64,000 bases of DNA, from NCBI RefSeq assembly GCF_024323335.1, contig NC_066584.1:418105819-418169818 (forward strand). The letters run 5' to 3'. The notes under the pieces were generated by a model, which was not told the DNA's origin, did not search any database, and worked only from the letters and a program-made list of their open reading frames with translations. Of this stretch, positions 9,195 to 63,557 are shown piece by piece (the stretch's first letter is position 1; each line of letters opens with the position of its first letter). Both the position numbers and the translations under genes were made by a program. This DNA comes from Lathyrus oleraceus (lineage: Eukaryota > Streptophyta > Magnoliopsida > Fabales > Fabaceae).

Positions 9195-9212
9195 TCCCCA
9201 GCAGAGTCGCCA
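9195..9212 (-). other. Primer binding site of E1
   Basis: On the minus strand it reads TGGCGACTCTGCTGGGGA, two bases inside the LTR end. As I recall, Ogre elements use tRNA-Arg; this site fits that type. The same sequence is at 15789-15806 in E2. Confidence 0.85.
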
Positions 9213-9401: not shown

Positions 9402-9417
9402 CCGTAGTACTCTACGG
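9402..9417 (-). other. LTR-end hairpin with covariation (E1)
   Basis: CCGTAG, loop of four, CTACGG. The equivalents in E2 (16001-16016), E3 (33621-33636) and E4 read CCGTCG/CGACGG, a compensatory double change. Confidence 0.6.
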
Positions 9418-9516
9418 GATCCACGCACAAAAGGAAGGAATAATGGTTGCTAAACACTGCTCAAACTCACACACACTGGCTGAAAGAGACAAAAGAAACA
9501 GACAAGACTGACTCGG

Positions 9517-10327
9517 CAGGACATCGTATCCTGGGCCTACTTAGTCTATCAGGCATAGACATCAGAGTCGAAGTAGTTCGGACCGGGGAGACGACACATG
9601 CTCGCTAGGATATCGCATCCTATGCATACGTATCTTCTCGGACGAGAGAAGAATCAGAGCATTCGTAGCTCGGCTGACACGCACACAAACAAACAAGACA
9701 CAGGCAAACATGGAGCCCGACTGCCAATCACTGGACTTATGTCAGCATCCGAACCTAAACACACGCACACTGGAACCCAAATGCCACTCGATGGACTTAC
9801 ATCGGCTTCCAAGCACACAACAACACAACAGGTTAATAGGGAGTCGGGGACTCGAGCCTATAACTGTCAAGCACACACAAAAAAAAAAGGGCGCCCGGAG
9901 AGATCAGCTCAATCTCCTGCCTACATACTTCATCTGGTATGAAGATCAGGGCGATGTAGTTCCCCTACGCAGGGAAAAAAGAAGGACTAGCCTAACCAGA
10001 TAACAGAGGGAGACACAACTCTAGGGAGACTACGACTCGAGCCTAGATGTTGTCATGCAAAGTCGTCCCTAAGTTAAGGTTTCTAGCTAACTGGCACAAG
10101 GGCCAACCTATCCTAGTCATGACTTGCACAGGAAGCAAGCCACACACACACCAAACTTGCACAGGAAGCAAGGGTCTCGATTGAAACTAGGGCAAGAGAA
10201 AGGGGAGGTCTCAATCGCAACGAGGGCGAGAGAAAAGGATTAGTGTTAGTTGTTAGTCAAACTCGACAAGACATCGCATCTCGTGCCTACGTATCTCATC
10301 TGGACATGAGAATCAGAGTTGCCGTAG
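9517..10327 (-). other. Four predicted three-helix RNA modules in E1 LTR
   Basis: Each module has an outer helix P1, an inner hairpin P2 and a neighbouring hairpin P3. Module at 9517-9576: P1 CTACTT/AAGTAG, P2 GTCTAT/ATAGAC, P3 CAGGA/TCCTG. At 9606-9667: P1 TACG/CGTA, P2 TCTTCTC/GAGAAGA, P3 TAGGAT/ATCCTA. At 9900-9959: P1 CTACA/TGTAG, P2 CTTCAT/ATGAAG, P3 GAGAT/ATCTC. At 10266-10327: P1 CTACG/CGTAG, P2 TCTCAT/ATGAGA, P3 ACGAGA/TCTTGT in sense with one G-U pair, which would be a mismatch on the other strand. In sense, CTGAT sits before P2 throughout. The fold is inferred from pairing and its role is unknown. Confidence 0.75.
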
Positions 10328-10348
10328 TTCGGCTACGGAGGGACAAAG

Positions 10349-13521: not shown

Positions 13522-13529
13522 ATATATAT
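13522..13529 (-). promoter_or_regulatory. Probable TATA box of E1 5' LTR
   Basis: On the minus strand GATATATATC lies 1.02-1.03 kb inside the LTR, the same distance as TATATATA in the E3 LTR at 30087. The neighbouring sequence TTAAACAG is shared. It would set U3 at about 1.0 kb. Confidence 0.6.
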
Positions 13530-16000: not shown

Positions 16001-16016
16001 CCGTCGTACTCGACGG
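16001..16016 (-). other. LTR-end hairpin CCGTCG/CGACGG (E2)
   Basis: Six-base stem with a four-base loop; counterpart of 9402-9417, where the stem is changed on both sides. Confidence 0.6.
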
Positions 16017-16108
16017 GATCCACGTTCTAAGAAAAGAAAAGGTTGCTAAAACATCACACACACACACACCGAAGACAACACAGGTGGGGTTAGGAGGAAG
16101 AGAGCTCG

Positions 16109-16439
16109 ATAGGACGTCGCATCCTATGCCTACGTATCTCGTCTGGAACGAGAATCAGAGCTGCCGTAGTTCGGCTTACGCACGCCAAACAAACAAACAA
16201 ACACACAGGCAAACATGGAGCCTGAATGCCAATCACTGGACTTACATCAGCATCCGAACCAAAACGCACAAAACGGCAAACGTGGAGCCCGACCGCCAAT
16301 CACTGGACTTACGTCGGCATCCGAACCAAACACAAGATAACAAGCAAACTCACACAAAAAGAAAAAAAGGTGCCCGGAGAGACCTCGCACGGCCTCCTGC
16401 CTACATACCTCGTCTGGAACGAGGATCAGGGCGATGTAG
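16109..16439 (-). other. Two predicted three-helix RNA modules in E2 LTR
   Basis: Module 16109-16169: P1 CTACG/CGTAG (16130-16134 with 16165-16169), P2 TCTCGT/ACGAGA (16137-16142 with 16148-16153), P3 ATAGGA/TCCTAT (16109-16114 with 16122-16127). Module 16379-16439: P1 CTACA/TGTAG, P2 CCTCGT/ACGAGG, P3 in sense GAGGCC/GGTCTC with one G-U pair. Confidence 0.75.
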
Positions 16440-17094
16440 TTCCCCCTCAAGGGAAAGAAAATCTAGCCAGAAACCAAGGGAAGACACACTACCAGGGAGC
16501 TGGACTCGAGCCTAGTGTTGTCATGCATCATTACCCTATGTTCAGGTTTCTACCTACTTGCACAACTGCAAGCTAATCCTATCCAGGAAGAAGCAAGCAT
16601 ACAAGCATACAGGCAAACAGAGCAAACAAAGCATTTCAAACAAATATTCACATAGCACACACTATAACCAATCAAGTGAGGCTCACACAATGGGTTTGAC
16701 TGCCGAAGCAAGTCATCTGTACACGGGTAGTATTCGCTCTTAACCTTGCCATTACGAGGCTAAGGTGAAGCAGATGAAAGGTGAGTGAAGATTAGACTTC
16801 ACAGCTCTTATCCCTGACCAGGGAGAGCTTCAGACAAAGGAGCGTGGGTCCAGAATGGAGGGACCCTTCTACGCTCAAAGACTCTGACTCGATTGTGCAA
16901 CAGCACAAGATCTTGGGTTTGTGTCCCAATGCATCAACACACAGCCGTGTGAGCAGAGGGACGACTCACAGAATAGTGGGGGATAGATTGCATATCCCTT
17001 TGATCCACCAATTGCCTCTTAGAGGTCTTTACCTGCTTGGCACAAATGTAAACAACCACAAACATTGCCTCTTAAGGAGGACTTCAGACAATTG

Positions 17095-19429: not shown

Positions 19430-20832
19430 CTTCCATTTAATCACATCCTTAATCATGAATTAGCCAAAATGCAATGTGATTAGCAAAATGTGACTTTACT
19501 AAGCAAGGGCAAATATGTCTTTTCACTTAAGGCTCTGTGACAGCTGTATGACAGCTCACACACTCTCAAAATGCCATGTGTGATGTGTTGCAACTTGTCC
19601 CATGGTCATTGGTTGTGTATTTCTCATTTTCCACATGCTATGGCACTTTATGCATTTTCAAGTACACTTCAAAAATGACTTGTTCAAATATTGCACCTTG
19701 GATGTTTATGACCATTCAAACAATTTCTAATTTGCATTTGTGAGGTGTTGCAAAAATCCCCATGCCAAAATTCTCATTATTTCTCAACTTGGACCATTTT
19801 GCCCTTGGATCTTTAACTGTACACTTGAAAATTGACTTTTTGTATTGACCATTTTTGATGAAATCCAATTATGCACCATGAAAGTACATGTCAAATGGAG
19901 TTTGCACATAAAAAGATCATCCAATTTGGACACTCCATGTGGAAGTTATGCCCCTCTGATTATGGGTCATTTTTGAAATTGAATGGACCATAACTTGCCA
20001 ACCATACATGGGAATTTCAAGTTCTTGGACTTTTTGTAAAGGTGAGACCAAGATCTACAACTTTCATGTTGAACAAATTTTCATTTGAAGCTTCCTTGGA
20101 CATGTGGTCTTGAGGTGAAAAACTTTCCATTTTTGGAAACTTCCATTACAAGTCACTTTCTATTTTTGGCAATTTTTGTCCTGACTTGATTTTCTCCATT
20201 CTTGAGCTTTGACATGTCAAATAACACTTGTTCCAACATGAATGAAGTGTATCCAACTCTCTCCCACCTCCAAATCCATTAAATCATGCGCAGTTGACCA
20301 CAGTTGACTTTTTCAATTGATAGATGAATCTGGCCATACACTGATCAATCTGAGCCCCAATTCTCTGATGAAATGACCAAAGGATGAAACCCTAGCCTCA
20401 ATAGGCTCCATAAAAACATAAGATGATCCCCATATACATCATAGACCCCATCTCCTTGCTATGCCCTGATTGGCCCAATGCACCTGATTAGGGTTGACCA
20501 GTGGTCAAAACCCTAATCTCCAGGAATACTTCAACACTTGATGATGACAAACCATGATGATGATGATGAATCATTTCAACCAAGATGAAGACCAATCTCC
20601 TTGAGAATCACAAAACCCTAACTTGGACCTCCACATCCTCAGATGATTAATGACCAGCCCAATGAAACCCTAGCTTGCACATAACCTCTTCATCTCCTGA
20701 TCAAGACTTGTGAGGATGACCTGCACAATGTAACCACATGCTATGCAATATGCAATGCCTAATGACCTAAAAAATGATATGCAATATGTTAAACTAGTCC
20801 CAAGAGAGGAGGGCAAATTTTGAGGTGTTACA

Positions 20833-22023
20833 TTTAGCCAGGGCAAAAGGGAAAGCAGTGGTGAGTGATAGTACTCCAGTGGTGACACCGGCGCCGCTTA
20901 GGTCGGAAGAAAAACTTGATGATGATGCAGAGGAATTCTTGAGAATCATCAAGAAGTCTGAGTACAAGTTGGTTGACCATCTGCAGCAGACTCCTTCCAA
21001 AATATCCATTTTGTCCTTGCTGTTAAGCTCTGAGGGTCACAGGGAGGCTTTGTTGAAGATTTTGAGGAAAGTCTATGTTCCTCAAGAGATTACCATTAAC
21101 CAGTTGGAGACGGTCGTGTCTAACATGCATGCCAGCCATGGGTTGGGTTTTACAGACATGGACTTGACTGTGGATGGGAGAAATCACAATCGGGCGTTAC
21201 ACATAGCGATGGAATGTAAAGGAGTCGTGCTTTCGCATGTGCTGGTTGATACCGGCTCCTCTTTGAATGTGTTGCCGAAGAAGGCTCTGGCAAAGTTGAA
21301 TTGTGATGGGCTGATTCTGACTCCGACTGATTTAATAGTGCGGGCATTCGATGGGTCGAAGCGGGCCGTGTTTGGAGAGGTTGAGCTTCCTGTGAAGATA
21401 GGCCCAGAGGTGTTCAAGTCGACTTTTTACGTCATGGATATCCAGCCGGCATATAGTTGCCTGTTGGGTCGACCATGGATCCATGCTGCTGGCGCAGTGA
21501 CCTCGACTTTACACCAAAAGTTGAAATACATCTGGGAGGGACAGGTCGTCACTGTCTGCGGAGAGGAGGATATCTTTGTCAGCCACCTGTCCTCATTCAA
21601 ATATGTGGAGATGGATGGCGAAATCTGGGAGACGCCAAGTCAAGCTTTCGAAACCGTTAAGGTGGAGAATGCTCTGTTTGCCAAAGAGGAGGAGAAACCG
21701 TCCATTGCTTCGTACAAACAGGCCGCCGAGGTGGTAAAGAATGGAGAGGCTCCTGGTTGGGGCAGGATGATGGATATCTCCGCAAAGAAAGATCGCTTCG
21801 GAGTGGGTTACCAGCCGGGCCGAGGCTCAGGACAAGGCAGAGGACGCCGTACGTCAGTAACATTCACAAGCGCCGGAATGCTGGATCCGGATCACATCTG
21901 CATGATGAGTGAGGAAGCTGATAGAGACTGCAACATTGACCGGTGGATAAAGCCGTGCGCACCAAGGATGGGAATCCAGAACTGGAGGGCTGAAAAGATC
22001 ATCCGGGTCACTCTGCTGGAAGT
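20833..22023 (+). pseudogene. Ogre gag-pro C-terminal part with aspartic protease (E3), 5' end lost to E2 insertion
   Basis: Open from the E2 junction to the proposed splice donor at 22024. The frame begins LARAKGKAVV; the protease active site is VLVDTGSSLNVLPKKAL, with D of DTG at 21248. A second protease landmark is YSCLLGRPWIHAAGA. After it comes a linker (GYQPGRGSGQGRGRRTSVTF), then an acidic tail with VTLLE before the intron. It would mature Gag and Pol. No stop or frameshift is visible in this part; it counts as broken because the upstream gag portion is separated by two nested insertions. Confidence 0.88.
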
Positions 22024-22297
22024 GTAATATTTTTCTTGTTTTGATTTTATGTGCATGAAAGCCATACGCGTTGCCCGACACGTAATGGTCCATTGTAAGG
22101 GCCACCTCATGTTTAAATTTGCAAGTTCGCGTCATTAATAAAAGGATGTTTTTCAATTAAAAGCGGTGTTCCCTGTTTTTCATTTATTTTTGCAGTTTAA
22201 AAATAAAAATAAAATAAAAATGGCAATGTTTTCATTTTTCTTTTTCAATTTGTCACACACCGGTTCTAAAGCAATGCATGAATCAACATTCATGCAG
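22024..22297 (+). other. Putative intron between gag-pro and pol (E3)
   Basis: Without splicing the frame ends at TAA 22025-22027. Donor GTAATA at 22024 and acceptor TTCATGCAG ending at 22297 would join codon bases GT + A and continue into TGT GAT TCT of pol in frame. E4 has the same sites (34621-34896) and the same phase. A second acceptor TTTTTGCAG at about 22194 is mutated to CAA in E4, so it is less likely. Ogre elements are known to carry an intron here; the exact sites are inferred. Confidence 0.65.
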
Positions 22298-25200
22298 ATG
22301 TGATTCTTCTCCGGATCTCATTGATAACAATCCTGTTACACCCTCGTATGACTTCGACAATCCAATCTATCATGCTGAAGAAGAAGGCGAAGAAGATTGT
22401 GAATTGCCGGGGGAATTAGCCAGGTTATTGAAACAAGAGGAGAAGGTGATTCAGCCGCATGAAGAGCAGATTGAGGTTGTGAACTTGGGTACCGACGAGG
22501 TCAAAAAAGAAGTGAAAATCGGGGCTGCTTTGGAGGAAAGTGTCAAGAGCAGAATGGTAGCACTGTTGAAAGAGTATGTCGACATCTTTGCCTGGTCTTA
22601 TCAAGATATGCCAGGGTTGGATACCGATATTGTTGTGCACAAGCTACCGTTGAGAGCAGATTGTCCTCCAGTGAAGCAGAAATTGCGCAGAACTCGACCT
22701 GACATGGCGATGAAAATCAAAGAAGAAGTGCAGAAGCAGTGGGATGCTGGTTTCCTTGCTGTCACTAATTATCCGCCGTGGGTTGCAAATATCGTGCCAG
22801 TTCCGAAGAAGGATGGGAAGGTGAGAATGTGTGTGGACTACCGAGATCTGAACAGAGCTAGTCCGAAAGATGATTTTCCGCTACCTCACATCGATGTGTT
22901 GGTAGATAATACAGCTCAATTCTCGGTGTTTTCCTTCATGGATGGCTTTTCTGGCTATAATCAAATTAAAATGTCGCCAGATGATATGGAGAAAACAACG
23001 TTCATCACACCGTGGGGTACCTTTTGTTACAAGGTGATGCCATTCGGTCTCAAGAACGCCGGTGCTACTTATCAGAGGGCCATGGTGACTTTGTTTCATG
23101 ATATGATTCATCATGAAATCGAATGCTATGTTGATGACATGATAGCAAAGTCCCAGACAGAAGAGGGGCATTTGGTAGATTTGGCCAAGTTGTTCGACCG
23201 GCTGAGACAGTTTAGACTGAGGTTGAATCCGAACAAGTGCACGTTCGGAGTGCGGTCCGGTAAATTGCTGGGGTTTATTGTAAGTGAGAAAGGAATCGAG
23301 GTTGATCTTGCAAAAGTAAAAGCAATAAGAGAAATGCCTGAACCGAGAACGGAGAAGGAGGTTCGTGGTTTCTTAGGTAGATTGAACTACATTTCACGGT
23401 TCATATCTCATCTAACAGCCACGTGCGAACCGATATTCAAGTTGTTGAAAAAGATCAAACGGTCAGGTGGAATGATGATTGCCAAGCGGCATTTGAAAAA
23501 ATAAAAGAATATTTGCAGGAGCCTCCGATTCTGATGCCTCCTGTGGAGGGAAGACCGTTAATTCTGTACTTGACGGTCCTTGAGGGGTCTATGGGGTGTG
23601 TATTGGGGCAGCATGACGAGTCTGGTCGAAAAGAGCATGCCATATACTACCTTAGCAAAAAGTTTACCGACTGTGAAACAAGATATTCACTGCTCGAGAA
23701 AACTTGCTGTGCTTTGGTCTGGGCTGCTCGCCGACTAAGGCAGTACATGCTGGTTCATACCACTTTATTGATTTCCAAGATGGATCCAATCAAGTACATT
23801 TTCGAAAAGCCAGCATTGACCGGACGGGTTGCGAGATGGCAAATGATTTTGACTGAATATGATATACAGTATACCTCTCAGAAGGCTATCAAGGGGAGTG
23901 TATTGTCTGATTACCTCGCTCAGCAACCCATTGATGATTATCAACCGATGAAGTTTGAATTCCCTGATGAGGACATCATGTTTCTCAAATCGAAAGATTG
24001 CGAGGAACCAATCCCGGAGGAGGGGCCTGACCCTGAATCCGAATGGATTTTGATGTTTGATGGGGCCGTTAACGTAAATGGAAGCGGTGTTGGTGCTGTT
24101 TTGGTTACGCCGAAAGGATCCCACATTCCTTTTGCTGCCCGGCTAACATTTGAGTGCACCAACAACGTGGCTGAATATGAAGCTTGTATATTGGGAATTG
24201 AGGAGGCGATTGATTTGAGGATCAAGAACCTTGTCATATATGGAGATTCAGCTCTGGTGATAAATCAGGTTAACGGGAAGTGGTATACGCATCAATCTCA
24301 TTTAGTGTCGTACCGAGATTATACGAGGAGATTGTTGACGTTTTTCACCAAGGTGAAGATGCATCATGTGCCTAGAGAGGAGAATCCTTTGGCAGATGCT
24401 TTGGCTACTCTAGCCGCCTTGATTAAGGTGCAGTGGTGGAATCAGTTCCCCAGTGTTGAGGTTGGACGTTTGGATAGGCCGGCTTATGTGTTTGCTGTTG
24501 ATACAACGCCTGATGATGAGAAGCCGTGGTATTACGATATCAAGCGCTATCTGGAGACTCAAGAGTATCCCGAGGGAGCATCTAAAAAGGACCGAAAGAC
24601 TCTGCGGAGGTTGGCCATGGTGTTCTACCTGAATAAGGATGGGGTTTTGTATAAGAGGAACTTTGATTGGGTCTTGCTAAGATGTGTTGATGATAAAGAA
24701 GCAAGCCAATTGATGAAAGAGGTTCATGAAGGATCGTTCGGTACCCATGCCAGTGGGAATGCAATGGTAAGGAAGCTGCTGAGGGCAGGTTATTATTGGA
24801 TGACAATGGAGGCCCAATGTTTTAATTTCGTGCGGAAATGTCATAAATGCCAGATTTATGCTGATAAGGTGCACGTGCCTCCAAATCCTTTGAGCTTAAT
24901 GTCGTCTCCATGGCCGTTTGCTATGTGGGGCATTGATATGATCGGAAAGATTGAGCCTACAGCTTCGAATGGGCATCGGTTCATATTAGTGGCTATTGAT
25001 TACTTCACCAAGTGGGTTGAAGCAGCCTCTTATACGAACGTGACGAAGCAGGTTGTGGCCAGGTTTCTCAAGAGAGACATCATTTGCAGATATGGGGTTC
25101 CCGAGAGAATCATTACTGATAATGGTTCTAATTTGAACAATAAGATGATGGCAGAACTGTGCCGGGAATTCAAGATCGAGCATCATAATTCTTCTCCTTA

Positions 25201-25778
25201 TCGTCCGAAGATGAATGGGGCGGTTGAGGCAGCCAACAAGAATATCAAGAAGATTGTGCAGAAAATGGTGGTAACCTATAAAGACTGGCATGAGATGTTG
25301 CCGTTTGCATTGCACGGGTATCGAACGTCGGTGCGTACATCTACTGGGGCAACTCCTTTCTCATTGGTGTATGGGATGGAGGCTGTATTACCTATTGAGG
25401 TTCAGATTCCCTCTTTGAGAGTCCTGATGGACGTGAAATTGCAAGAGGCTGAATGGGTAAGAACCCGATACGAGGAGTTGAGCCTAAATTGAGGAAAAGA
25501 GGCTGGCGGCCATCTGTCATGGGCAGTTATACCAGCAAAGGATGAAGCGTGCTTTTGACAAAAAGGTGCGACCTCGGGTATATCACGTAGGTGATATGGT
25601 GCTAAAAAGGATCCTTCCTCCTCAAAGCGATCGAAGGGGCAAATGGACACCGAATTATGAAGGTCCATTCGTGGTCAAGAAGGTCTTCTCTGGTGGAGCC
25701 TTGTTGCTAACGACCATGGATGGCGAGGATTTTCCATCCCCTGTGAATGCGGACGCAGTTAAAAAATACTTCGTGTAA
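22298..25778 (+). pseudogene. Ogre pol (RT, degenerate RH, archaeal-type RH, integrase) of E3, two frameshifts
   Basis: RT: WVANIVPVPKKDGKVRMCVDY, catalytic D in FMDGFSGYNQ, YVDD at 23127-23138. A one-base loss at about 23446-23452 (five A's where E4 has AGAAAA) shifts the frame; reading resumes as KDQTVRWNDDCQAAF. The first RNase H lacks the usual catalytic Asp (LTVLEGSMGCVLGQ). The second, archaeal-type RNase H keeps FDG, AEYEA, YGDSAL and PLADAL. Integrase has H-x6-H, C-x2-C, then D (WGIDMIG), D (ITDNGSN), 35 residues, E (AVEAANK). A one-base gain at about 25481-25492 shifts again; the tail 25542-25778 ends VNADAVKKYFV. By eye it is nearly identical to E4 pol apart from these lesions. A dead first RNase H with an intact second is known for Tat/Ogre elements. 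Confidence 0.9.
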
Positions 25779-29053: not shown

Positions 29054-30086
29054 TGTAGCACCTCAAATTTGCACCTACATTTTGTACATACATTTTCATC
29101 ATTAGTTCATTAACATAATATAGTCCACTGCATAACATTGCATTGTCCATTTGCCCAAGTGCAAGTTCAGCTGACAAGTTAGGTCAAACTGGTCAGGAGA
29201 TCAGTCAAACAAGCAAGCAAGTGTGTTTTTCTTTGAGCCAAGACCCTAGGGTTGGTCCAACATGTTCACATGACTTGGGGATCCATTTGAAGTGTTTGGT
29301 CAAGGATTGGATGTTCAGAAGTCATCAGTCAATGCACAGTTTGCCAGAAACCCTAAAAAGTCAAACTTAGTCAACTGTGTCTGATTTTATGGTTTTGATG
29401 GTTGGATTTGGTTTAAGAGAGCTTATTCATGTCCAAATAGGCCTCATATATCATGGCAAACATCATCATTGAAGAATTTGAAGCCAAATCAGAAATTTCC
29501 AAAAATAGAAACTGGACCTGTAATTGGAATTTGCCAAAAATGGAAAGTCTTGATCCTCAAACTTACATCATGATACAAGCTTCAAATGAATTTTTGCCCA
29601 ACATGAAAGTTGAAGATCTTGTTCTCCCATTTCCAAAAAGTCCAAGAACACTCAATTCCCATGTATAGTTGGCAAGTTATGATCAAATCATTTTCAGAAA
29701 TTTTTGAACTTCAAAAGGCCATATCTCTCAAACCATTTGGCCAAATTGGGTGGGGTTTTTTTGCAACAAGTCACATTTGACCTCCTCTTTCAAAAAATGT
29801 AACCCTCATGCACCAAAACATCATAGATCAAAATGGTATTTTTTGACTTACTTGAATTAATTTTAAGTGAAGTGGAAATTTGACTTTTTGAATTAACCAA
29901 TTCCAATCCATTTGGCCATTCAAATATGTGCTGAAATGTTGTTTAAAACATGTTTGAAGCCCATTTTCGAGCAGCCAATTACACCCCATGTAAAATGTTT
30001 GGATTTTTAGCAAAGTGGTAAACTTGTCATTTAATCAAATTAGGATTACTACACAACTTAACCAGCTAATGCAACCTTAAACAGGG

Positions 30087-30094
30087 TATATATA
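30087..30094 (+). promoter_or_regulatory. Probable TATA box of E3 LTR
   Basis: TATATATA in GGGTATATATACATC, 1.03 kb into the LTR, at the same place as in E1. Confidence 0.65.
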
Positions 30095-30869
30095 CATCAT
30101 TTTCTTTCTGAAGCAAGCCCTAGCAGCTACTGAAAACAAAAGAAAAACACTTGCTCTCAAAAACCATTTTCACCATTCTTCAAAAGTTCTGCTGAAACCC
30201 TCGAAGGAGCTGGGTTGTTGTTGATTTTGTTCATCATATACCATCACTTTGAAGCATTTTCCAGCTTGGCTTTCCCACTGCAAGCAAGAAACACAACTCT
30301 GTTTTCATAGAGCTCTTCCATGGCAGATGTTGTTTAGAGCTGTTTTGAGCCTTCTTGAGTTGAAATCTTTTGACCATTCATCAAAGCAAACCTGAAGCTT
30401 CAACTGTTTCGTCACAAAACAACCAAGGAAGCACTGAATCAACACTGCACTTCAGATTTGGTGAGTTTTCGATTTTCTCCATTTGACAAACTGTGATATG
30501 CTTTAGTTAGATCCTTGCATGCTGATTCTTTTGAGCTTTGAATCGTGTTGAATGGTTGCCTGTGCTGAAAGTTATGTTGGTTTAAAGGTTGATGCTCAAA
30601 TTTGTTTTTGCTTGATTCTTCTTGAATAGCTTGATTTAGTGATTATGAATGATGTATTCTTGATGTATGATGTTGGCTGATTCGAATGATGCATTCAATT
30701 TCCATTTCTGGGCACATTTTAATTTCACGATTTGAACAAGGTGATGAATGTCTACTGTAGCTGCCATAAACCCTAGCCTTCACTTTTCCAGATTTTCTTT
30801 TCACGTGTTTGCATGTGGGGTTTACTGTTTTATTGCCTGGACCAATCAGAACATTCCGTTTCCATGTGC

Positions 30870-30884
30870 AAAACGCCGCGTTTT
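30870..30884 (+). other. CG-core palindrome AAAACG-CCG-CGTTTT (E3)
   Basis: Inverted repeat also present in E2 at 18610-18624, in an otherwise diverged stretch of the two LTR types. Confidence 0.55.
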
Positions 30885-31295
30885 GTTAAGTGACTTCAGT
30901 AATTTCAAAAATGCCACCGGTCGTGCCCCATGTCCTATTAAGTCATGTTGTTTTCATTTTATTTATTTCATTTTGATGCTCCAACTTGCAAAAATCATAG
31001 CATCTTCATTTTAAATCCAAAATTCATGGGAATTTCTGCGTTGTGTTCATCTGGATCTCTACTTTTTTATCATGATTTTTCCTGATTTTTTTGATGAGTA
31101 GATTTTAAATGGTATTAGGGTTTGTGACATGTGATCATATTTTGTACACTTTGCCAAAACATTTGTGAAATGGTGATGCTATGTCCAATGGCCTTGAAAT
31201 TTTTTGTGCATAAACTAGACACATTCATGGTGATTTTGGTGTAGAGTTTGTGAATTTATCTTATCTGGATTGTGAGTTATGAATTTTTGAAGTAG

Positions 31296-31318
31296 GGTGT
31301 GACAATTTGTGTCACACC
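31296..31318 (+). other. Conserved LTR palindrome GGTGTGACA/TGTCACACC (E3)
   Basis: Nine-base stem, loop ATTTG. Same motif as in E1, E2 and E4, with different outer flanks. Confidence 0.7.
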
Positions 31319-32367
31319 ATTGATGTGCAATTTGATGATTTTCATAGCCATGCTTCTTGACCTCAAAATGCTTTGATTTTTTGCATGAATTCACTTGAGT
31401 ATGTCTAGTTTACATGTGATTTTTTGTGGATTTGTTTATGGAATTTTCCAATTGATTGAGATTTTTCTCCCCTGTTTGGTCTTATGTTGACTTTTTGTGA
31501 CACTTGTTCCCATTTGTTTTGTGAAATGCTCATACTTTATTAGATGGACATGAAATTTGATATGTGATTACTAGATATCTTAAGCTTTGCCATGGTTTTA
31601 GTCCCATTCATTTCTCATATGCCATCCCTGATTTATGAATTATTCAAGTTGGTGCATGTTTGGTTGACTTCTTTGAGTATGCTTGAACTTGCCTTGCCTT
31701 TCTGATTTTCATTGACCAACTTCCTTTGATCCAAATGAGATGAAATTTGATATGCATATCATGTTATGGATTATGTTTGAGCATGAATTATTTGATGATT
31801 TTTGGAATTGTTTATGATTGGTTTTGAGTTGAGTCTTGCTGTTGACTTCTATGAGCTTCCATATGCCATGCTTTGACTTCTTTTGCTTATAAAATGATGA
31901 TGATGAATGATATGATTGTGAAACCAATTGAGTTTGTTTCTTGATTGTTTGAACTTGATTTTGGACACTTGCCACTTGCTGTTTTGACTTTCTTATCTCT
32001 TTTTGACCCTAGGCTTGTCCTAGTGGTCTTGTTGCTCATGTTTAAGCTTGTTGTTTCAGGTTAAGCAACAAATGCTTCAAAGAGATTAATACCAGTTGCT
32101 TGAGTTTGGTGTTTTATCATGGACTAACTTGTGTGTTTTGTAGGTTGTTTAGCTCACTTGCTTTGAGCTTGTGCTTGGCACAACTGATTGACTGTATTAT
32201 CTGTTTGGTTTATGTTGTTTGTTCTAACTTTGTGTCTGATATACTAACTGTGCTTGACTGATTTCAGGTACTTTAGTTGCTTTTAGTTCCTTGTGAACTT
32301 TGCTTTGCTTTGCTTGATAAGCAATTTGCATTGAGGTATAATTCCTTACTCCATGTAGTCTGGAAGA

Positions 32368-32389
32368 CCTGGCCTGTTACTTGGCCAGG
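32368..32389 (+). other. LTR hairpin CCTGGCC/GGCCAGG (E3)
   Basis: Seven-base stem, loop TGTTACTT. Counterpart of 11069-11090 and 54387-54408; E2 has a compensatory variant. Confidence 0.6.
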
Positions 32390-32862
32390 CAACTGTCTGA
32401 AGTCCTCCTTAAGAGGCAATGCTTGTGTGTGTTTACATTTGTCCCAAGCAGGAAAAGTCCTTTAAATAAGGCAATTGGTGTATATAAGAGATATGTAGTC
32501 TATCTCCCACTATTCTGTGAGTCTTCTCCTTGCTCCCATGACATGGTTGTAGCATTGAGATCCTAACCCAAGATCTATCGAGTCAATAATCTGTGGAGAG
32601 AGTTCCTACTTTCTGAACTCCCACACTTTCTGATATTCAAATGCTCTCCCTGACCAGGGATAAGAGCAATGAGGCACACCCCTCATCTCCTTTCATCTGC
32701 TTCACCTTGGCTCTCAATGTCAAGGTTAAGAGCAACATTTACCCAGTTACAGAGGTTTGTTTGTTGAGGTTGATATGACCCCTCGACTAAAACCTAACCT
32801 TGATTGAGCCCATTGTTTGCATATAGTGTGTGCTACTTGTGCTTGTGTGTTTGTTTGACTTG

Positions 32863-32975
32863 CTTCCTGTGCAAGTTAGGTTTAGTTTAGCTTGCTTCCT
32901 GTGCAAGTTAGGTTTAGTTTGGCTTGCTTCCTGTGCAAGTCAGGGTTAGGATAGGCTTGCTTCCTGTGCAAGTTA
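32863..32975 (+). repeat. Tandem array, about 37-bp unit, in E3 LTR
   Basis: About three and a half units around gcttcctgtgcaagttaggt. E1 has two spaced copies of the same unit at about 10120-10170, on the other strand. Confidence 0.8.
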
Positions 32976-33096
32976 GCTAGAAACCTTAACTTAGGGATGA
33001 TTTGCATGATAACATCTAGGCTCGAGTCGTAGTCTCCCTAGTTGTGTCTCCCTCTGTTATCTGGTTAGGCTAGTTTTTCTCCCCTCTGTAGGGGAA

Positions 33097-33511
33097 CTAC
33101 ATCGCCCTGATCCTCGTTCCAGACGAGGTATGTAGGCAGGAGACCGTGCGAGGTCTCTCCGGGCACCTTTTTTCTTTTTGTGTGTGTTGTTTGACGATTG
33201 CTAGGCTCGAGTTCCCGACTCCTTAGCAATTTGTTGTCTGTTTGTTCTTGTTGTGTGCTTGGAAGCCGGTATAAGTCCATCGAGTGGCATCTGGGTTCCA
33301 GTGATTGGCATTCGGGCTCCACGTTTGCCTTTGTCTGTTTTTGTGTGCGTGTTAGCCGAGCTACGAATGCTCTGATTCTCCTTCGTCCAAGGAGATACGT
33401 ATGCATAGGATGCGATATCCTAGCGAGCATGTGTCGTTTCCCCAGTCCGAACTACTTCGACTCTGATGTCTATGCCTGATAGACTAAGTAGGCCCAGGAT
33501 GCGATATCCTG
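33097..33511 (+). other. Three predicted three-helix RNA modules in E3 LTR
   Basis: Module 33097-33157: P1 CTACA/TGTAG, P2 CCTCGT/ACGAGG, P3 GAGACC/GGTCTC. Module 33362-33422: P1 TACG/CGTA, P2 TCTCCTT/AAGGAGA, P3 TAGGAT/ATCCTA. Module 33452-33511: P1 CTACTT/AAGTAG, P2 GTCTAT/ATAGAC, P3 CAGGAT/ATCCTG. Unpaired CTGAT precedes P2 in all three. The P3 loop is GTGCGA or GCGAT. Stem sequences differ freely while pairing is kept. Confidence 0.78.
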
Positions 33512-33620
33512 TCGAGTCAGTTTCAGTCTTGTTTGTTTTCTTGTGTCTCTTTCAGCCAGTGTGTGTGTGTGTGTGTGAGCAGTGTTTTAGCAACCATTTT
33601 TCTTTCTTAGAGCGTGGATC

Positions 33621-33707
33621 CCGTCGAGTACGACGGACGTGAGGGGTGCTAATACCTTCCCCTTGCGTAATCGACTCCCTTACCCTTTCTCTTTGGTCGC
33701 GAGACCA
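33621..33707 (+). other. LTR-end hairpins of E3
   Basis: CCGTCG-AGTA-CGACGG at 33621-33636, and TGGTC-GCGA-GACCA at 33694-33707, the latter closed by a GNRA-type tetraloop. Both occur in the other Ogre LTRs; the first shows a compensatory variant in E1. Confidence 0.55.
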
Positions 33708-33819
33708 CGTCTTTTCCAGGTTTACTCTGAGCGTTTCCTTTCCCTCTTTTGGGATAAATAACGCACGGTGGCGGCTCTGTTGTTCTTGTTTCCCGCCGGT
33801 TTTTCGCGTAATGCAACAC

Positions 33820-34620
33820 CGTGTTTTCGCATGTGCTGGTTGATACCGGCTCCTCTTTAAATGTGTTGCCGAAGAAGGCTCTGGCTAAGTTGAATTGCGA
33901 CGGGCTGATTTTGACTCCGACTGATTTGATAGTGCGGGCTTTTGATGGGTCAAAGCGGGCCGTGTTTGGGGAGGTTGAGCTGCTAGTGAAGATTGGCCCA
34001 GAGGTGTTTAAGTCAACTTTTTATGTCATGGATATTCAGCCGGCATACAGTTGCCTGTTGGGTAGGCCATGGATTCATGCTGCTGGGGCAGTTACCTCGA
34101 CTTTGCACCAGAAGTTGAAATACATCTGGGAAGGCCAAGTCGTCACTGTGTGCGGAGAAGAGGACATCTTTGTCAGCCACTTGTCCTCGTTCAAATATGT
34201 TGAGATGGACGGCGAGATATGGGAGACGCCTAGCCAGGCATTTGAAACCATCAAGATGGAGAATGCCCTGTTTGCTAAATAGGAGGAAGAGAAACCGTCC
34301 ATTGCTTCATACAAGCAGGCTGCTGAGGTGGTTAAAAGTGGAGAGGCTCCGGGTTGGGGCAGAATGATGGATGTCCCTGCAAAGATAGATCGATTCGGAG
34401 TGGGGTATCAGCCGGGACGAGGCTCAGGGCAAGGCAGAGGACGTCGTGCGTCAGTCACATTCACAAGTGCCGGAATGCTCGATCCGGATTACATCTGCAT
34501 GATGAGTGAGGATGCTGATAGCGACTGTGACATGGACCGGTGGATAAAGTCGTGCGCACCAGGGATGGGAATCCAGAACTGGAAGGCTGAAAAGATCATC
34601 CGGGTCACTCTACTGGAAGA
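33820..34620 (+). pseudogene. Ogre protease region of E4, 5' truncated by E3, with an in-frame stop
   Basis: Starts within the protease active-site region: VLVDTGSSLNVLPKKAL follows almost at once after the E3 LTR. An in-frame TAG at 34280-34282 replaces GAG of E3 (ALFAK-stop versus ALFAKEEEK), with one extra codon nearby. Reading then continues to VTLLEE at the splice donor. The sequence is otherwise very close to E3 20833-22023. Confidence 0.88.
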
Positions 34621-36247: not shown

Positions 36248-36871
36248 TGTAACACCCCGATAAAATAAGATGATTATTTAAATTGAGTTAATAATATATT
36301 TATTAATTTAATTAAATAATTGGAATTTTTATTATTATTGGAATAATAATTATTGGAATATTATTGGGATTATTTTTATTGTTATTATTGGAATAAAAGT
36401 AGAAATCAGTAAAAAGGTTCCATTTGGTAAAAAGAGTTATTTTTCACGTGAAAAGGAAAAAGAGGCAGAAAAGTGGAAAAGGGCAAAGAAAGCCAGAGAA
36501 CAAGGGTTGAAGGAAGGAAAAGCTTGAAGCTCAGAGATTTGCCGGATTAACTCAGGTAAGGGGGGTTTATCATCGTTTAATGGGTATTATGGGATAATAT
36601 GTCATGGGTAGTGATAAACCATTGATTGATCTCTGAATTGGATGATTATGATGAAATTGTGAAATATTGGATGAACGAAATTGGGTTATGATTGAGAGGA
36701 ATTCGTAAGAATTAGATGTAAAAATGTTAGATTTTTGTAAAAACGAATAGAGTATCATTCGTGTTAGATGATATGAACAATTATTGTGAAAAATTGGACT
36801 GTGGAAGGTTGAATTGGATAGATCTCGTAGCAGAGAAAGCCATAGCAGATCTGGAAGTCTGGTTTCTGGTC

Positions 36872-37100
36872 ATACGCGTATGGCACTAGGCAATACGCGT
36901 ATGAGATGGCATGGTACGCGTATGGCACTAGGCAATACGCGTATGGATGAGGAAGATGATGTTTTGAACGTAGTTTGGTCTCTCTTGGTACGCGTATGGG
37001 AAAGTGGTACGCGTAGCATACGCGTATGAGATGGTGTTACGCGTATTGGATTTGGCTGAGGAATGGGCCATACGCGTATGGGACTAGGCAGTACGCGTAT
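36872..37100 (+). promoter_or_regulatory. Cluster of ten TACGCGTA palindromes in E5 5' LTR
   Basis: Copies lie near 36873, 36894, 36915, 36936, 36988, 37008, 37018, 37045, 37072 and 37092, many extended to ATACGCGTAT. The core ACGCGT fits the CGCG box bound by CAMTA-type calmodulin-binding factors. A TATA-like TATATTA at 37183-37189 lies about 80 bp downstream, so the cluster may be a promoter-proximal enhancer. The function is inferred. Confidence 0.6.
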
Positions 37101-37394
37101 GGGCAGGATTGTGATTTTTCTGTGCTGTTGTTGTGCAGTTTTTGGTTGTTCAGCTGAGTAATGTGATGTAGTTGATGTACGATATATTAGGGATCATTTC
37201 CCGTTGTTGTGAGTAGTATAGGTATTAGTAGAGTGTGCTAATACTGTGGTTGTTATTTGGCATGATATGATATGCTTATGTGATAAAATACTGATGATGT
37301 GTGATGGTATGCATGATGCTGTGAATGTATCAGTTATGTGTGCATTTGTGAATAGACTGTTTTATGGCTTAGAGTGTGAGCATATATCTATTCT

Positions 37395-37597
37395 TGAATT
37401 GTTGTTGATGATGTAGCATTGCTAGGTGATTAGCATGCATGTTGTGGCCTTTATGGTGGTAGCTAATTCCCATGGTGAGGAATTAGTGATGAGTTAGTGT
37501 GAATTGTTGTTGATGTTTGCATGCTAGGTGAATTAGCGTGCATAGCATGGCCCTTGGGGTGGTAGCTAATTCCCATGGTGAGGAATTAGTGATGTGA
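37395..37597 (+). repeat. Two-copy repeat of about 105 bp in E5 5' LTR
   Basis: Both copies begin ttgttgatg and hold CTAATTCC-catggtga-GGAATTAG, an 8-bp perfect inverted repeat, near 37461-37484 and 37565-37588. The same repeat is in the 3' LTR (+6570). Confidence 0.75.
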
Positions 37598-38287
37598 GTC
37601 ACTAGGTCTCAAATGAGTGGGACTAGTGAGCTTGGTAGCCGTACCTGGATTTGGTCGGTGAAGTTGAACTATATGTTCACGAATAGTCGGTACCGCATGC
37701 ATGGAGTCTCATTGCATAATATATGTGTAGTGTATAATATGAATGGATGTATTCCAATGTTATACATGTGTTGTGTTGGCATTGAGCATGAGTATGATTT
37801 GTGTTGATATTGAGTATGACATTTGAATTGATGTGCCGTTACCGAATGTGTGATGTGATTAGGGTGATTAATGTGTTAAATTACTTAACATGACATGATA
37901 TTTTATAATGCTTGTTATATCGATTGAGGAACTCACCCTTACAACTATTTTTCAGGTAACGAGCAGTGATTGAATAGAAGCTAGTCCTGGGAGTCTAGTG
38001 TAGTCCTTAGTGGGTCATGCTCTGGTAGATGTAACATCGGGATGGGATGTTTTATTATGTTTTCTTTTGGTTGTTGAACAACTTTACATGTAATGTAGTA
38101 CATGATTTGAATGTCGTTATTTTGTATCCGCTGCGAATTATGTAAAAGTGTCTTATTTTGATTAAATAAATGAGCATGACAGGATATTTTGTTGATTGTG
38201 TGACACCCTTCAGGGCATAATTACTCTGATTGATATTTTATTATTTTAATTAAATATTTGGGGTATTTTAGAAGGGTGTTACATTAG

Positions 38288-38299
38288 TGGTATCAGAGC
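38288..38299 (+). other. Primer binding site of E5
   Basis: TGGTATCAGAGC, four bases after the LTR, complementary to the 3' end of initiator tRNA-Met, as is usual for this lineage. Confidence 0.9.
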
Positions 38300-38407
38300 A
38301 TTGTCGGTCGAGTCGAGTCGTAATTATTTTGTTCCCCTGTACGGGATAGGTGTTGCGTAACCCTATCAGTACTTATTGTTTTAGCTTGTTGGGTTTTCAG
38401 AATAGAG

Positions 38408-42778: not shown

Positions 42779-42805
42779 GGTATGTTTTCGAGGACGAAAA
42801 CTCTT

Positions 42806-42820
42806 TTAGTGGGGGAGAGT
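42806..42820 (+). other. Polypurine tract of E5
   Basis: TTAGTGGGGGAGAGT directly before the 3' LTR. Confidence 0.85.
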
Positions 42821-44853: not shown

Positions 44854-44858
44854 TATAC
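44854..44858 (+). other. Target-site duplication of E5, right copy (TATAC)
   Basis: Matches 36243-36247. Confidence 0.97.
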
Positions 44859-49384: not shown

Positions 49385-49690
49385 TTGTTTGATGCCTGTC
49401 AACATCATTGTTTGATGTCCTGTCAACATCATGGTTCGATGTTCTGTCAACATCCTTGTTTGATGTCCTGTCAACATCATTGTTCGATGTCCTGTCAACA
49501 TCCTTGTTTGATGTCCTGTCAACATCCTTGTTCGATGTTCTGTCAACATCCTTGTTCGATGTCCTGTCAACATCATTGTTCGATGTCCTGTCAACATCAT
49601 TGTTTGATGTCCTATCAACATCCTTGTTTGATGTCCTGTCAACATCCTTGTTTGATGTCCTGTCAACATCATTGTTCGATGTCTGGTAAA
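49385..49690 (+). repeat. 24-bp tandem array in E4 3' UTR, copy 1
   Basis: About 12 units of gatgtcctgtcaacatcctt plus four bases, with t/c and a/c variants. Each unit holds GATGT-cctgtca-ACATC pairing. Since 24 is a multiple of 3, several frames on both strands stay open (for example the octapeptide FDVLSTSL); this comes from unit length, not coding. Confidence 0.92.
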
Positions 49691-50666: not shown

Positions 50667-50683
50667 GATTGAATAGGGGCAGC
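50667..50683 (+). other. Polypurine tract of E4, copy 1
   Basis: GATTGAATAGGGGCAGC directly before TGTAACACCTC. Confidence 0.85.
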
Positions 50684-52088: not shown

Positions 52089-52096
52089 TATAAGAG
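52089..52096 (+). promoter_or_regulatory. Probable TATA box of E4 LTR copy 1
   Basis: TATAAGAG, 1.40 kb into the LTR, matching TATAAATA of E2. The second copy is at 59949-59956. Confidence 0.6.
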
Positions 52097-53306: not shown

Positions 53307-53335
53307 CTAGGTGTGACAATTTGTGTCACACCTAG
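53307..53335 (+). other. Conserved LTR palindrome, 12-bp stem (E4)
   Basis: CTAGGTGTGACA / TGTCACACCTAG, loop ATTTG. The duplicate is at 61167-61195. Confidence 0.75.
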
Positions 53336-54408: not shown

Positions 54409-55050
54409 CAACTGTCTGAAGTCCTCCTTAAGAGGCGATGTTTGTGGTTGTTTACATTTGTGCCAAGCAGGTAAAGACCTCTATGAGGCAATTGGTGGAT
54501 CAAAGGGATATGCAATCTATCCCCCACTATTCTGTGAGTCGTCCCTCTGCTCACACGGCTGTGTGTTGATGCATTGGGACACAAACCCAAGATCTTGTGC
54601 TGTTGCACAATCGAGTCAGAGTCTTTGAGCGTAGAAGGGTCCCTCCATTCTGGACCCACGCTCCTTTGTCTGAAGCTCTCCCTGGTTAGGGATAAGAGCT
54701 GTGAAGTCTAATCTTCACTCACCTTTCATCTGCTTCACCTTAGCCCCGCAATGGCAAGGTTAAGAGCGAATACTACCCATGTACAGATGACTTGCTTCGG
54801 CAGTCAAACCCATTGTTTGAGCCTCACTTGACTGGTTATAGTGTGTGCTTTGTGAATATTTGTTTGCTCTGTTTGCTTGTATGCTTGTATGCTTGCTTTC
54901 TTCCTGGATAGGATTAGCTTGCAGTTGTGCAAGTAGGTAGAAACCTCAACGTAGGGTAATGATGCATGAAAACACTAGGCTCGAGTACAGCTCCCTGGTA
55001 GTGTGTCTTCCCTGGGTTTCTAGCTAGAGTTTTTTTCCCTTGAGGGGGAA

Positions 55051-55387
55051 CTACATCGCCCTGATCCTCGTTCCAGACGAGGTATGTAGGCAGGAGGTCG
55101 TGCGAGACCTCTCCGGACACTTTTTTTCTTTTTGTGTGCGTTTGCTTGTTATCTGATTGTGTGTTTGGTTTGGATGCCGATGTAAGTCCAGTGATTGACG
55201 GTCGGGCTCCACGTTTGCCGTTTTGTGCGCGTTTTGGTTCGGATGCTGATGTAAGTCCAATGATTGGCATTCAGGCTCCAAGTTTGCCTGTGTGTTTGTT
55301 TGCTTGTTTGGCGTGCGTGAGCCGAACTACGGCAGCTCTGATTCTCGTTCCAGACGAGATACGTAGGCATAGGATGCGACGTCCTAT
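55051..55387 (+). other. Two predicted three-helix RNA modules in E4 LTR copy 1
   Basis: Module 55051-55111: P1 CTACA/TGTAG, P2 CCTCGT/ACGAGG, P3 GAGGTC/GACCTC. Module 55327-55387: P1 CTACG/CGTAG, P2 TCTCGT/ACGAGA, P3 ATAGGA/TCCTAT. Compared with E3, P3 of the first module has two changed pairs (GAGACC/GGTCTC there). Confidence 0.78.
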
Positions 55388-55538
55388 CGAGCTCTCTTCC
55401 TCCTAACCCCACCTGTGTTGTCTTAGCGTGTGTGTATGATGTTTGTCTGTTTATTTTAGCAACCTTTTCTTTTCTTAGAACGTGGATCCCGTCGAGTACG
55501 ACGGACGTGAGGGGTGCTAATACCTTCCCCTTGCGTAA

Positions 55539-61500: not shown

Positions 61501-63557
61501 ACTGTTTTATGAATTTTTGAAGTGAATGCATGTGTTGGTGCTATGAATTGCCTTGAATAATTGTGTCTGGATTTCTTGATTTTCATTGGCCTAGTTCCTT
61601 TTGTCCAATTGAGCTGAAAATTGACATGCTATACCTTGAATAAGTCCTGTTTAGGTGTGAATTATTTGAGGATTTTTGGAATTGTTTTGGTATGCTTTTT
61701 ATTGAAGTTATTCTGTTTGGACATTTGGTGTTGTATTTGACCTAGTTTGTACCAAATTGTGCATGAAATGATAATGGTGAATGGTATGAGCATGGGACCA
61801 ATTGCATTGGCTTTCTATTTGTGTTAATTTGATTTTGGTTGAGAATTACTTGCTGTTTAGAATTTTTTCTCCCTTTTGGACCCTAGGCTTGGCCTAGTGG
61901 TCTAGTTTCTCACATTTGGTTTGGCTTTTCAGGATGAAATACATAATGCTTAAGGAGATTGCTTCAAGGCAATTTGAATTGAGATTGTTTGGTGTTGTGA
62001 ACTAACATGACTTTGTTTTGTAGGTTGTGAAGCTTGAGCTTGAGCTTATAGCTTGCACTTGTGTGCATTAAATTGTGTTGTCTGTATAGATTGACATTTG
62101 CTGTTATTGTTTGTCTGTCTGAGTACTGATGATACTTGATTGATTTCAGGTACATTTAGTCGCTTACAGTTCTTTAAGAACTTGCTTGCTGTTGCTTGGT
62201 TTTTAAACCACTTGAGGTAGGACTTCTATTCTTCATGTAGTCTGGAAGACCTGGCCTGTTACTTGGCCAGGCAACTGTCTGAAGTCCTCCTTAAGAGGCG
62301 ATGTTTGTGGTTGTTTACATTTGTGCCAAGCAGGTAAAGACCTCTATGAGGCAATTGGTGGATCAAAGGGATATGCAATCTATCCCCCACTATTCTGTGA
62401 GTCGTCCCTCTGCTCACACGGCTGTGTGTTGATGCATTGGGACACAAACCCAAGATCTTGTGCTGTTGCACAATCGAGTCAGAGTCTTTGAGCGTAGAAG
62501 GGTCCCTCCATTCTGGACCCACGCTCCTTTGTCTGAAGCTCTCCCTGGTTAGGGATAAGAGCTGTGAAGTCTAATCTTCACTCACCTTTCATCTGCTTCA
62601 CCTTAGCCCCGCAATGGCAAGGTTAAGAGCGAATACTACCCATGTACAGATGACTTGCTTCGGCAGTCAAACCCATTGTTTGAGCCTCACTTGACTGGTT
62701 ATAGTGTGTGCTTTGTGAATATTTGTTTGCTCTGTTTGCTTGTATGCTTGTATGCTTGCTTTCTTCCTGGATAGGATTAGCTTGCAGTTGTGCAAGTAGG
62801 TAGAAACCTCAACGTAGGGTAATGATGCATGAAAACACTAGGCTCGAGTACAGCTCCCTGGTAGTGTGTCTTCCCTGGGTTTCTAGCTAGAGTTTTTTTC
62901 CCTTGAGGGGGAACTACATCGCCCTGATCCTCGTTCCAGACGAGGTATGTAGGCAGGAGGTCGTGCGAGACCTCTCCGGACACTTTTTTTCTTTTTGTGT
63001 GCGTTTGCTTGTTATCTGATTGTGTGTTTGGTTTGGATGCCGATGTAAGTCCAGTGATTGACGGTCGGGCTCCACGTTTGCCGTTTTGTGCGCGTTTTGG
63101 TTCGGATGCTGATGTAAGTCCAATGATTGGCATTCAGGCTCCAAGTTTGCCTGTGTGTTTGTTTGCTTGTTTGGCGTGCGTGAGCCGAACTACGGCAGCT
63201 CTGATTCTCGTTCCAGACGAGATACGTAGGCATAGGATGCGACGTCCTATCGAGCTCTCTTCCTCCTAACCCCACCTGTGTTGTCTTAGCGTGTGTGTAT
63301 GATGTTTGTCTGTTTATTTTAGCAACCTTTTCTTTTCTTAGAACGTGGATCCCGTCGAGTACGACGGACGTGAGGGGTGCTAATACCTTCCCCTTGCGTA
63401 ACCGACTCCCTTACCCTTTCTCTTTGGTCGCGAGACCATTTCCTTTCCAGGTTTCTCTGAGCGTTTCCTTTCCCTATCTTGGGATAAATAACGCGCAGTG
63501 GCGGCTCTGTGTTGTGTTTTTGTTTCAGCCCGCCGGTTGTTTTTCGCGGATGCGACA
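58544..63557 (+). repeat. Complete 3' LTR of E4 (type B, 5014 bp)
   Basis: TGTAACACCTC...GGATGCGACA. TATA box 59949-59956, palindrome 61167-61195, RNA modules at about 62914-63250, LTR-end hairpins CCGTCG/CGACGG near 63353 and TGGTC-GCGA-GACCA near 63424. It differs from copy 1 almost only by single T gains or losses in T runs. Confidence 0.93.

Follow-up and report, generated by a model that had tools for sequence, protein, structure and literature searches.

Long terminal repeat (LTR) elements place the signals by which their RNA is selected and reverse transcribed close to the primer binding site, either in the leader or at the 3' end. The nearest experimental case that we found for the structure reported here is the pseudoknot of Ty1 genomic RNA, which starts in R, binds Gag and is required for reverse transcription to be efficient, according to the part of the report covered (PMC4974528). 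Among plant elements, Ogre explains 57% of the variation in genome size across the legume tribe Fabeae (PMC4659654, as far as covered), and the portions of the Ogre literature covered here contain nothing on RNA signals in the Ogre genome and no structured RNA element of Ogre/Tat LTRs. Here we analysed a window of 64,000 nucleotides from Lathyrus oleraceus (C6:418105819-418169818 of the 3.795-Gb assembly GCF_024323335.1; 'the window' denotes this whole stretch) and report that the LTRs of four Ogre-type elements within it, E1 to E4, carry a repeated module that is very probably a real structured element of the retrotransposon RNA. It resembles the Ty1 structure in being a pseudoknot in LTR-retrotransposon RNA, lying near the primer binding site. 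In Ty1, in the account covered, nt 1-7 form a single pairing with the distant nt 264-270 (PMC4974528), whereas the module folds locally within about 70 nt, is present in one to four copies and is built around an invariant junction core.

A preliminary description of the window had proposed eleven such modules and two duplicated copies (four modules in E1, two in E2, three in E3 and two in E4), and all 13 were located by sequence and again by a covariance model. It had drawn three helices, P1, P2 and P3, with an unpaired CTGAT ahead of P2. The three helices are present, but this layout was incomplete: the four bases preceding TGA, which end in the C of CTGAT, form a fourth helix, the pseudoknot helix (PK), with four bases 3' of P3. 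In two modules (starting at 33358 and 9598) P1 lacks its outer pair. In our alignments each module spans about 65-77 nt, with its strands in the order P1, PK, hairpin, P1, hairpin, PK. P1 is of the CTACG/CGTAG type, 4-6 bp long with C-G as its first pair; P2 has 5-7 bp; and PK occurs as GCTC/GAGC, GCCC/GGGC, ACTC/GAGT, GTTT/AAAC and GTTC/GAAC, reaching five or six pairs in some window modules (AGCTC/GAGCT, ATGCTC/GAGCAT). Since PK crosses P1, the module is an H-type pseudoknot with P2 in one loop and P3 in another; with 1-3 nt between P1 and PK, we reason that a classical H-type geometry is possible. The modules of the window are:

33094..33166, plus strand: pseudoknot module E3a, with PK pair GCCC/GGGC
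33358..33430, plus strand: pseudoknot module E3b, with PK pair ATGCTC/GAGCAT and P1 without its outer pair (C facing T)
33449..33519, plus strand: pseudoknot module E3c, with PK pair GACTC/GAGTC and P1 CTACTT/AAGTAG
55048..55120, plus strand: pseudoknot module E4a
55324..55394, plus strand: pseudoknot module E4b
62911..62983, plus strand: duplicated copy of module E4a, from the covariance model
63187..63257, plus strand: duplicated copy of module E4b, from the covariance model
16370..16442, minus strand: pseudoknot module E2a
16102..16172, minus strand: pseudoknot module E2b
10259..10330, minus strand: pseudoknot module E1a, with PK pair AACTC/GAGTT
9891..9962, minus strand: pseudoknot module E1b
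9598..9671, minus strand: pseudoknot module E1c, with P1 lacking its outer pair (C facing T)
9509..9579, minus strand: pseudoknot module E1d

Across the 10 distinct modules of the window, 96.8% of the 220 cells of P1, P2, P3 and PK are paired, compared with 80.1% when the 3' letters are shuffled and 30.5-47.7% when the partners are slid by 1-3 columns. As had been proposed, the module is kept by compensatory change: 13 of the 22 window pairs have changed on both sides (five of six in P2, five of six in P3, two of four in PK and one of six in P1, which is otherwise nearly invariant). PK was spotted by eye in these same modules, so the window count is not an independent test of that helix; the larger set of 95 modules, the loci chosen by their 5' side and the helix-level phylogenetic null, all given below, are independent tests of it. 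The covariance model used to make the larger alignments excluded PK; the alignment used combined the window with 68 of 101 further loci (numbered with the prefix L), after loci without a match, near copies, a few others and three bacterial loci had been removed by hand. Among 95 distinct modules, PK is paired in 91.6% of cells against 82.1% when shuffled and 28-51% when slid by 1-3 columns, and double-sided changes number 48 cells against 10.2 shuffled and 3-24 slid. All four PK pairs are formed in 68 of the 95, and three in another 23.

PK partners that had not been seen beforehand matched in most loci. Twenty loci were drawn from genome matches of CCGAACTACGNNNNNNTGAT by their 5' side before the 3' side was viewed, and PK pairing was complete in 16. 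A 5' type new to us, GTTC, was answered by GAAC in five of five loci, which are close copies; the known type GTTT by AAAC in seven of nine loci and by GAAC, through a G-U pair, in two; and the known type GCTC by GAGC in both of its loci. Read together, the series GTTC/GAAC, GTTT/GAAC and GTTT/AAAC shows what would be the expected path via a G-U pair.

Covariation was weighed against a phylogenetic null with a script of our own that resembles R-scape but is not the published program; it applies a G-test with average product correction and redistributes substitutions along a FastTree tree. Sequences at least 97% alike to a retained one were removed (71 to 51 in a first test, 103 to 86 in a second), leaving 86 modules, 59 columns and 20 proposed pairs. 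In the two-set test four of these 20 pairs fell at E<0.05, with P2 contributing a single pair (0.001) and P3 the other three (0.0035, 0.018 and 0.019). When all 1711 column pairs are ranked, proposed pairs take the first four places and six of the first eight. When scores were summed by helix, null helices were as high in 0 of 338,100 cases for P2, 0 of 310,200 for P3, 11 of 367,200 for PK and 24,210 of 338,100 for P1. Branches on which both partners had changed with pairing kept amounted to 10.35 in P2 (0.51 expected), 10.6 in P3 (0.70 expected) and 5.0 in PK (0.39 expected), each at p≤0.001, and to 3.0 in P1 (0.36 expected, p 0.007). P2, P3 and PK are supported at the helix level against the phylogenetic null. 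The covariation foreseen in the preliminary description is thus present at the level of pairs for P2 and P3 and at the level of helices for P2, P3 and PK; P1 does not pass the general test. P1 appears too invariant to be tested well, and its co-substitution signal is suggestive.

Several results weigh against the fold, or against parts of it. No pair of P1 or PK is significant alone (best single-pair E 0.56 and 0.2, respectively), none of the 1711 column pairs in the 86 modules reached E<0.05 (best 0.087), and the first null test, on 51 modules, likewise left every pair at E 0.05 or above when all pairs were considered; the tree was built from the module's own 59 columns and so absorbs signal. 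Among the loci chosen by their 5' side, a further new type, ATTT, had its complement in none of four: L085, L086 and L092 have AAAC, which leaves an A-C mismatch, and L096 is without the 3' side. RNAfold, run on five module fragments, returned P1 in none and PK in two, a weak test, as P1 was without its first base in four of the fragments and PK without its end in one. The strand signal is divided as well. It had been held that the few G-U pairs are valid only in the sense RNA, and this is so for P2 and P3, where Watson-Crick pairs went to G-U in about 43 events and to A-C in 19, an excess expected of sense RNA; it is not so for P1 and PK together (13.5 versus 25.4), where the excess of A-C is as expected of decaying copies, or of a dispensable helix. 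An earlier tally of cells gave G-U versus A-C as 97 versus 37 overall and 4 versus 18 in P1 and PK. Decay of old methylated copies would yield both kinds of change, so the strand evidence is mixed.

The weak tests of single pairs in P1 and PK, and the relatedness of the sequences in families, would suit a reading without any selected structure, one that treats the module as a relic carried along by a successful family, or as a motif of the DNA, and puts the paired changes down to alignment choice or shared descent. We consider this very unlikely, as double-sided changes recur in separate helices and in register, the helix-level nulls are exceeded, and an adjacent hairpin with an AGTA loop, described below, likewise varies on both sides. 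The module is suggestively more alike between copies than its surroundings, within one element family: in seven pairs compared with their 70-nt flanks, its identity lay above both flanks in five and between them in two.

While the hairpin stems vary freely, the junction is near-invariant, with AA 5' of P1, TGAT linking PK to P2, and TA and GCA directly 5' and 3', respectively, of the closing P1 strand; fixed junction bases combined with free hairpins point to a fold whose core matters. Conservation at the bases of GAACTACG, CTCTGAT, TGAT and ATACGTAGGCA is inflated, the loci having been picked by patterns that contain them, but this bias does not touch the modules of the window or the additional ones lying next to pattern matches, and these keep the core with few exceptions, as judged by eye and not counted apart.

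Could such a core act by itself? The strand order of the module, with its four helices crossing as in the hepatitis delta virus (HDV) ribozyme, is that of the HDV double pseudoknot, and a self-cleaving RNA on this plan would also be in keeping with the C immediately 5' of the PK 3' strand, conserved in 71 of 86 modules. HDV-like ribozymes have a P1 of about 7 bp that starts with a G at the cleavage site. The module differs from these ribozymes in its P1 of 4-6 bp starting with C-G, in its TGAT linker and in its P2 of 5-7 bp; inspection by eye showed no consistent extra helix of two pairs joining the P2 loop to the linker that follows P1, Rfam gave no match to the module, and several cuts per LTR in a genomic RNA would be costly. 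Self-cleavage is the explanation to which we attach the least probability. The HDV ribozyme is itself described, in the part of the source covered, as a double pseudoknot of four helices in which only five bases are conserved (PMC4870747). The hammerhead ribozyme was rejected, since CTGAT in the module is followed directly by P2, and P2 by a TACGTAG-like sequence. In hammerheads one stem is followed by CTGATGA and the next by GAAA.

A compact pseudoknot with an invariant core, found in tandem copies at a near-fixed distance from the LTR 3' end, might alternatively serve as a mechanical roadblock, the knot halting a 5'-to-3' exonuclease or pausing reverse transcriptase, and so protecting the RNA end or aiding strand transfer. 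Flaviviral exonuclease-resistant RNAs, which are likewise small pseudoknotted three-way junctions, often occur in tandem. In these RNAs, as given in the part of the source covered, PK1 joins 2-3:43-44 and PK2 joins 30-33:53-56 (PMC7603331), so that, read from the pair numbers, their 5' strand pairs after the second hairpin, whereas that of the module pairs between its two hairpins; the idea that the two strand orders are equal was dropped on these numbers. For the loop pairing that would close a ring, the signal is not clear: over 75 modules, which are related sequences, the longest run averaged 3.65 against 3.47 for swapped partners, and 6 of 500 swaps were as high. A roadblock therefore strikes us as improbable. 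We are similarly doubtful that the module represents a new class of small tertiary-folded RNA, of HDV-like strand order but with its own core, that would act alone by cleaving or by stopping a moving enzyme and would exist in more than 45,000 copies in one plant retrotransposon lineage.

The copy number itself comes from one surveyed genome of 3.795 Gb, with each search pattern reversed as its control. The pattern CCGAACTACGNNNNNNTGAT has 45,311 exact matches against 9 for the control, GATACGTAGGCANNAGGNNNCGA has 502 against 0 and GAACTACNNNNNCTCTGATTNCTC has 327 against 0. When 20 loci were sampled from the 45,311, the covariance model found the module in 19, and 18 had the conserved LTR block described below, or a listed variant of it, downstream. 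A looser early pattern gave 973 matches against 4,902 for its control and is not taken as evidence; the module was recognised by sequence in three of its first eight loci.

Which element carries the module? The window holds, at 20798..25492 on the plus strand, the coding remains of one element, with protease, a separate reverse transcriptase (RT) open reading frame (ORF), RNase H, a second RNase H (RVT_3) and integrase. The protease ORF (20798-22027) is separated by a short gap, which in Ogre is an intron, from the RT ORF (22218-23504), and the product of 23381-25492 has the domains RT_RNaseH (58-160), RVT_3 (226-344), Integrase_H2C2 (436-493) and rve (512-609). According to the part of the source covered (PMC6317226), Ogre and Retand carry a second RNase H placed after RNase H and before integrase, and the two ORFs of Ogre are set apart. 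The window element has its second RNase H in this same place, together with separate gag-pro and RT ORFs and an LTR of about 5 kb, and on these features the carrier is an Ogre/Tat-type retrotransposon. Some other module-bearing LTRs have the same LTR end and primer binding site as the window element.

Further copies and families were seen alongside. Positions 1-1832 and 12720-14551 share the same LTR start on the minus strand at 99.9% identity and are probably the two LTRs of E1, which would then extend beyond the window. A tandem duplication of 7.86 kb (47714-55550 and 55575-63412, 99.87% identity) includes the end of the E4 LTR; in its first copy the LTR leaves its normal course about 10 nt past the conserved block, and arrays of a 24-bp tandem repeat lie within the duplicated element at 49251-49838 and 57112-57699. 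A nested gypsy element at 36248-44854 has another domain set, including SH3_Tf2-1, and LTR-like flanks of 2.04 kb whose 99.6% identity indicates a recent insertion; the covariance model found no module in its LTRs. Outside the window, L050 contains at 452-1645, on the minus strand, an ORF with DUF7745 shortly past an LTR of the GTTT family, in the position of Ogre's extra ORF. A further LTR family has two modules 107-123 nt apart, start to start (L041, L057, L062, L066, L067, L068 and L079, with L081 added by eye), in which the linker is often TGACT or TGAAT rather than TGAT. At C1:221748381-221767309 (L027-L038) there is a tandem array with 995-bp spacing, an LTR-derived satellite with the module pattern present at 16 of 20 unit positions.

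Within the LTR, the module sits in the 3' part, in one to four copies, and is followed, at nearly constant distances, by a series of candidate signals. The corresponding features of the window are:

29054..33818, plus strand: LTR of element E3, starting TGTAGCACCTCAAA (motif match), its 3' end near ...TTTTTCGCGTAATGCAAC placed by alignment to the E1 LTR
33620..33636, plus strand: second hairpin of E3, CCCGTCG-AGTA-CGACGG, 6 nt 5' of the 3' block
33643..33662, plus strand: conserved LTR block GGGGTGCTAATACCTTCCCC
33695..33706, plus strand: short hairpin GGTCGCGAGACC, seen by eye
33753..33761, plus strand: candidate poly(A) signal, AATAAATA-like (here GATAAATAA), a putative role
55488..55504, plus strand: AGTA hairpin of E4
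63351..63367, plus strand: duplicated copy of the AGTA hairpin
16001..16017, minus strand: AGTA hairpin of E2
9402..9418, minus strand: AGTA hairpin of E1, with stem CCGTAG/CTACGG
9195..9212, minus strand: putative primer binding site TGGCGACTCTGCTGGGGA, 3' of the E1 LTR, so assigned from its place

The distance from the end of the last module to the block GGGGTGCTAATACCTTCCC or its variants is 102-138 nt (median 118) for 56 of 103 modules in several LTR families; of the remaining modules, not sorted singly, some have another module in between, a sequence that ends early or a diverged block. Judged by eye, the sequence between module and block differs strongly from family to family. Directly 5' of the block, in the window and in many loci, stands the second hairpin, which has an ARTA loop and stems such as CCGTCG/CGACGG, CCGTAG/CTACGG, CCGTTG/CAACGG, CCATGG/CCATGG, CCATCG/CGATGG, CCTAGG/CCTAGG and CCTTAG/CTAAGG. 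Its 27 stem variants vary on both sides; as the listing took only stems with at least four of six pairs, it counts variants and is no test of pairing. The candidate poly(A) signal lies downstream of the block. Twelve of the 103 modules (window E1 and E2, L015, L022, L027, L029 and L050) have a primer binding site of the form TGGCGACTC(T/C)G(C/T)TGG no more than 600 nt downstream, and where it exists the last module of the array is 264-342 nt from it; for the other 91, many pieces end short of the place and others are solo or broken LTRs. A copy of the start of the primer binding site (GGCGACTC or GGCGGCTC) was also observed inside the LTR, 32-55 nt 5' of the real site, in L015, L022, L027, L029 and window E1 (minus strand).

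The preliminary description had placed the modules in the genomic RNA because they lie downstream of a TATA box. This ground does not hold, as the TATA box, at 32481, occurs in one of the four LTRs, that of E3, and was rejected as a general promoter for that reason. The conclusion itself follows by another route: every base of an LTR belongs to U3, R or U5, so a full-length transcript includes the modules at one end or at both, whichever promoter is used. A TATAGTG string, TATAGTGTGTGCT at window position 32822, is common to all four LTRs E1-E4, which the TATA box at 32481 is not, and is a possible alternative promoter. In E3 the modules lie about 610-1040 nt downstream of the TATA box, and if transcription began there the leader would be long; it may be that the modules let ribosomes bypass this leader or enter within it. 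That holds for E3 only, and the last module stands 264-342 nt 5' of the primer binding site and hence not at a start codon, so that we rate a translation signal slightly below the roadblock.

What the module does can be approached from its position and from its pattern of change. The paired changes suggest that the retrotransposon RNA would need the fold in order to multiply, and we infer that the module folds in the genomic RNA and is a cis-acting signal there. A pseudoknot fold acting in this way is, to our mind, the best explanation overall, although we advance it tentatively. Recognition by Gag or during reverse transcription, as the particular function, is put forward with a little more reserve; it is ranked first on account of the module's location, next to the primer binding site either at the 3' end or within the leader, and of the Ty1 case. 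According to this proposal the module would fold within the leader of the genomic RNA, Gag or the reverse-transcription complex would recognise the folded leader, and recognition would bring about selection of full-length RNA, dimerisation or the start of reverse transcription, with tandem copies raising the affinity. For packaging the analogy is weakened by Ty1 itself, where such a role of the pseudoknot was not demonstrable, in the part of the report covered (PMC4974528).

Next in our ranking comes a nuclear export or splicing-balance element that would release unspliced Ogre RNA from the nucleus, as structured elements of other LTR elements do. Ogre needs both spliced and unspliced RNA, and one to four tandem copies would suit a protein-binding site that depends on dose. 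The MusD transport element and the IAP RNA transport element are structured cis elements of LTR-retroelement RNA, that of MusD with a pseudoknot, the likeness being one of description only and limited to the part of the source covered (PMC12786077). However, the invariant bases of the module are at its junction and not in its hairpin loops, and a self-contained fold fits them equally well; export thus seems unlikely to us. Behind recognition by Gag or in reverse transcription, and behind export, we place the roadblock, translation and cleavage.

To the extent of our searches the module is new, as the preliminary description had supposed. Rfam gave no match in the window at the gathering threshold, and at loose settings (E up to 10 in nine loci, up to 5 in window 32400-33850) only unrelated sub-threshold matches. 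The titles, abstract openings and passages covered in the open-access literature on Ogre and on RNA structure in plant LTR elements contained no description of it, most subscription papers being outside this scope, and in the papers examined the string TACGTAGGCA is present only in actin primers. Viral contigs gave no matches for two patterns. In 257 Gb of bacterial and archaeal sequence there were three exact matches of a gapped pattern, fewer than the roughly 15 given by a hand estimate of chance, and these are taken as chance.

With a defined fold of some 70 nt that occurs naturally in matched and mismatched forms, one can test directly how a plant LTR retrotransposon packages, exports and reverse transcribes its RNA and how stable that RNA is, and a covariance model seeded with the fold could mark the 3' part of otherwise highly variable LTRs. 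If the core should prove active alone, functional RNA of a new kind would be present here at very high copy number.
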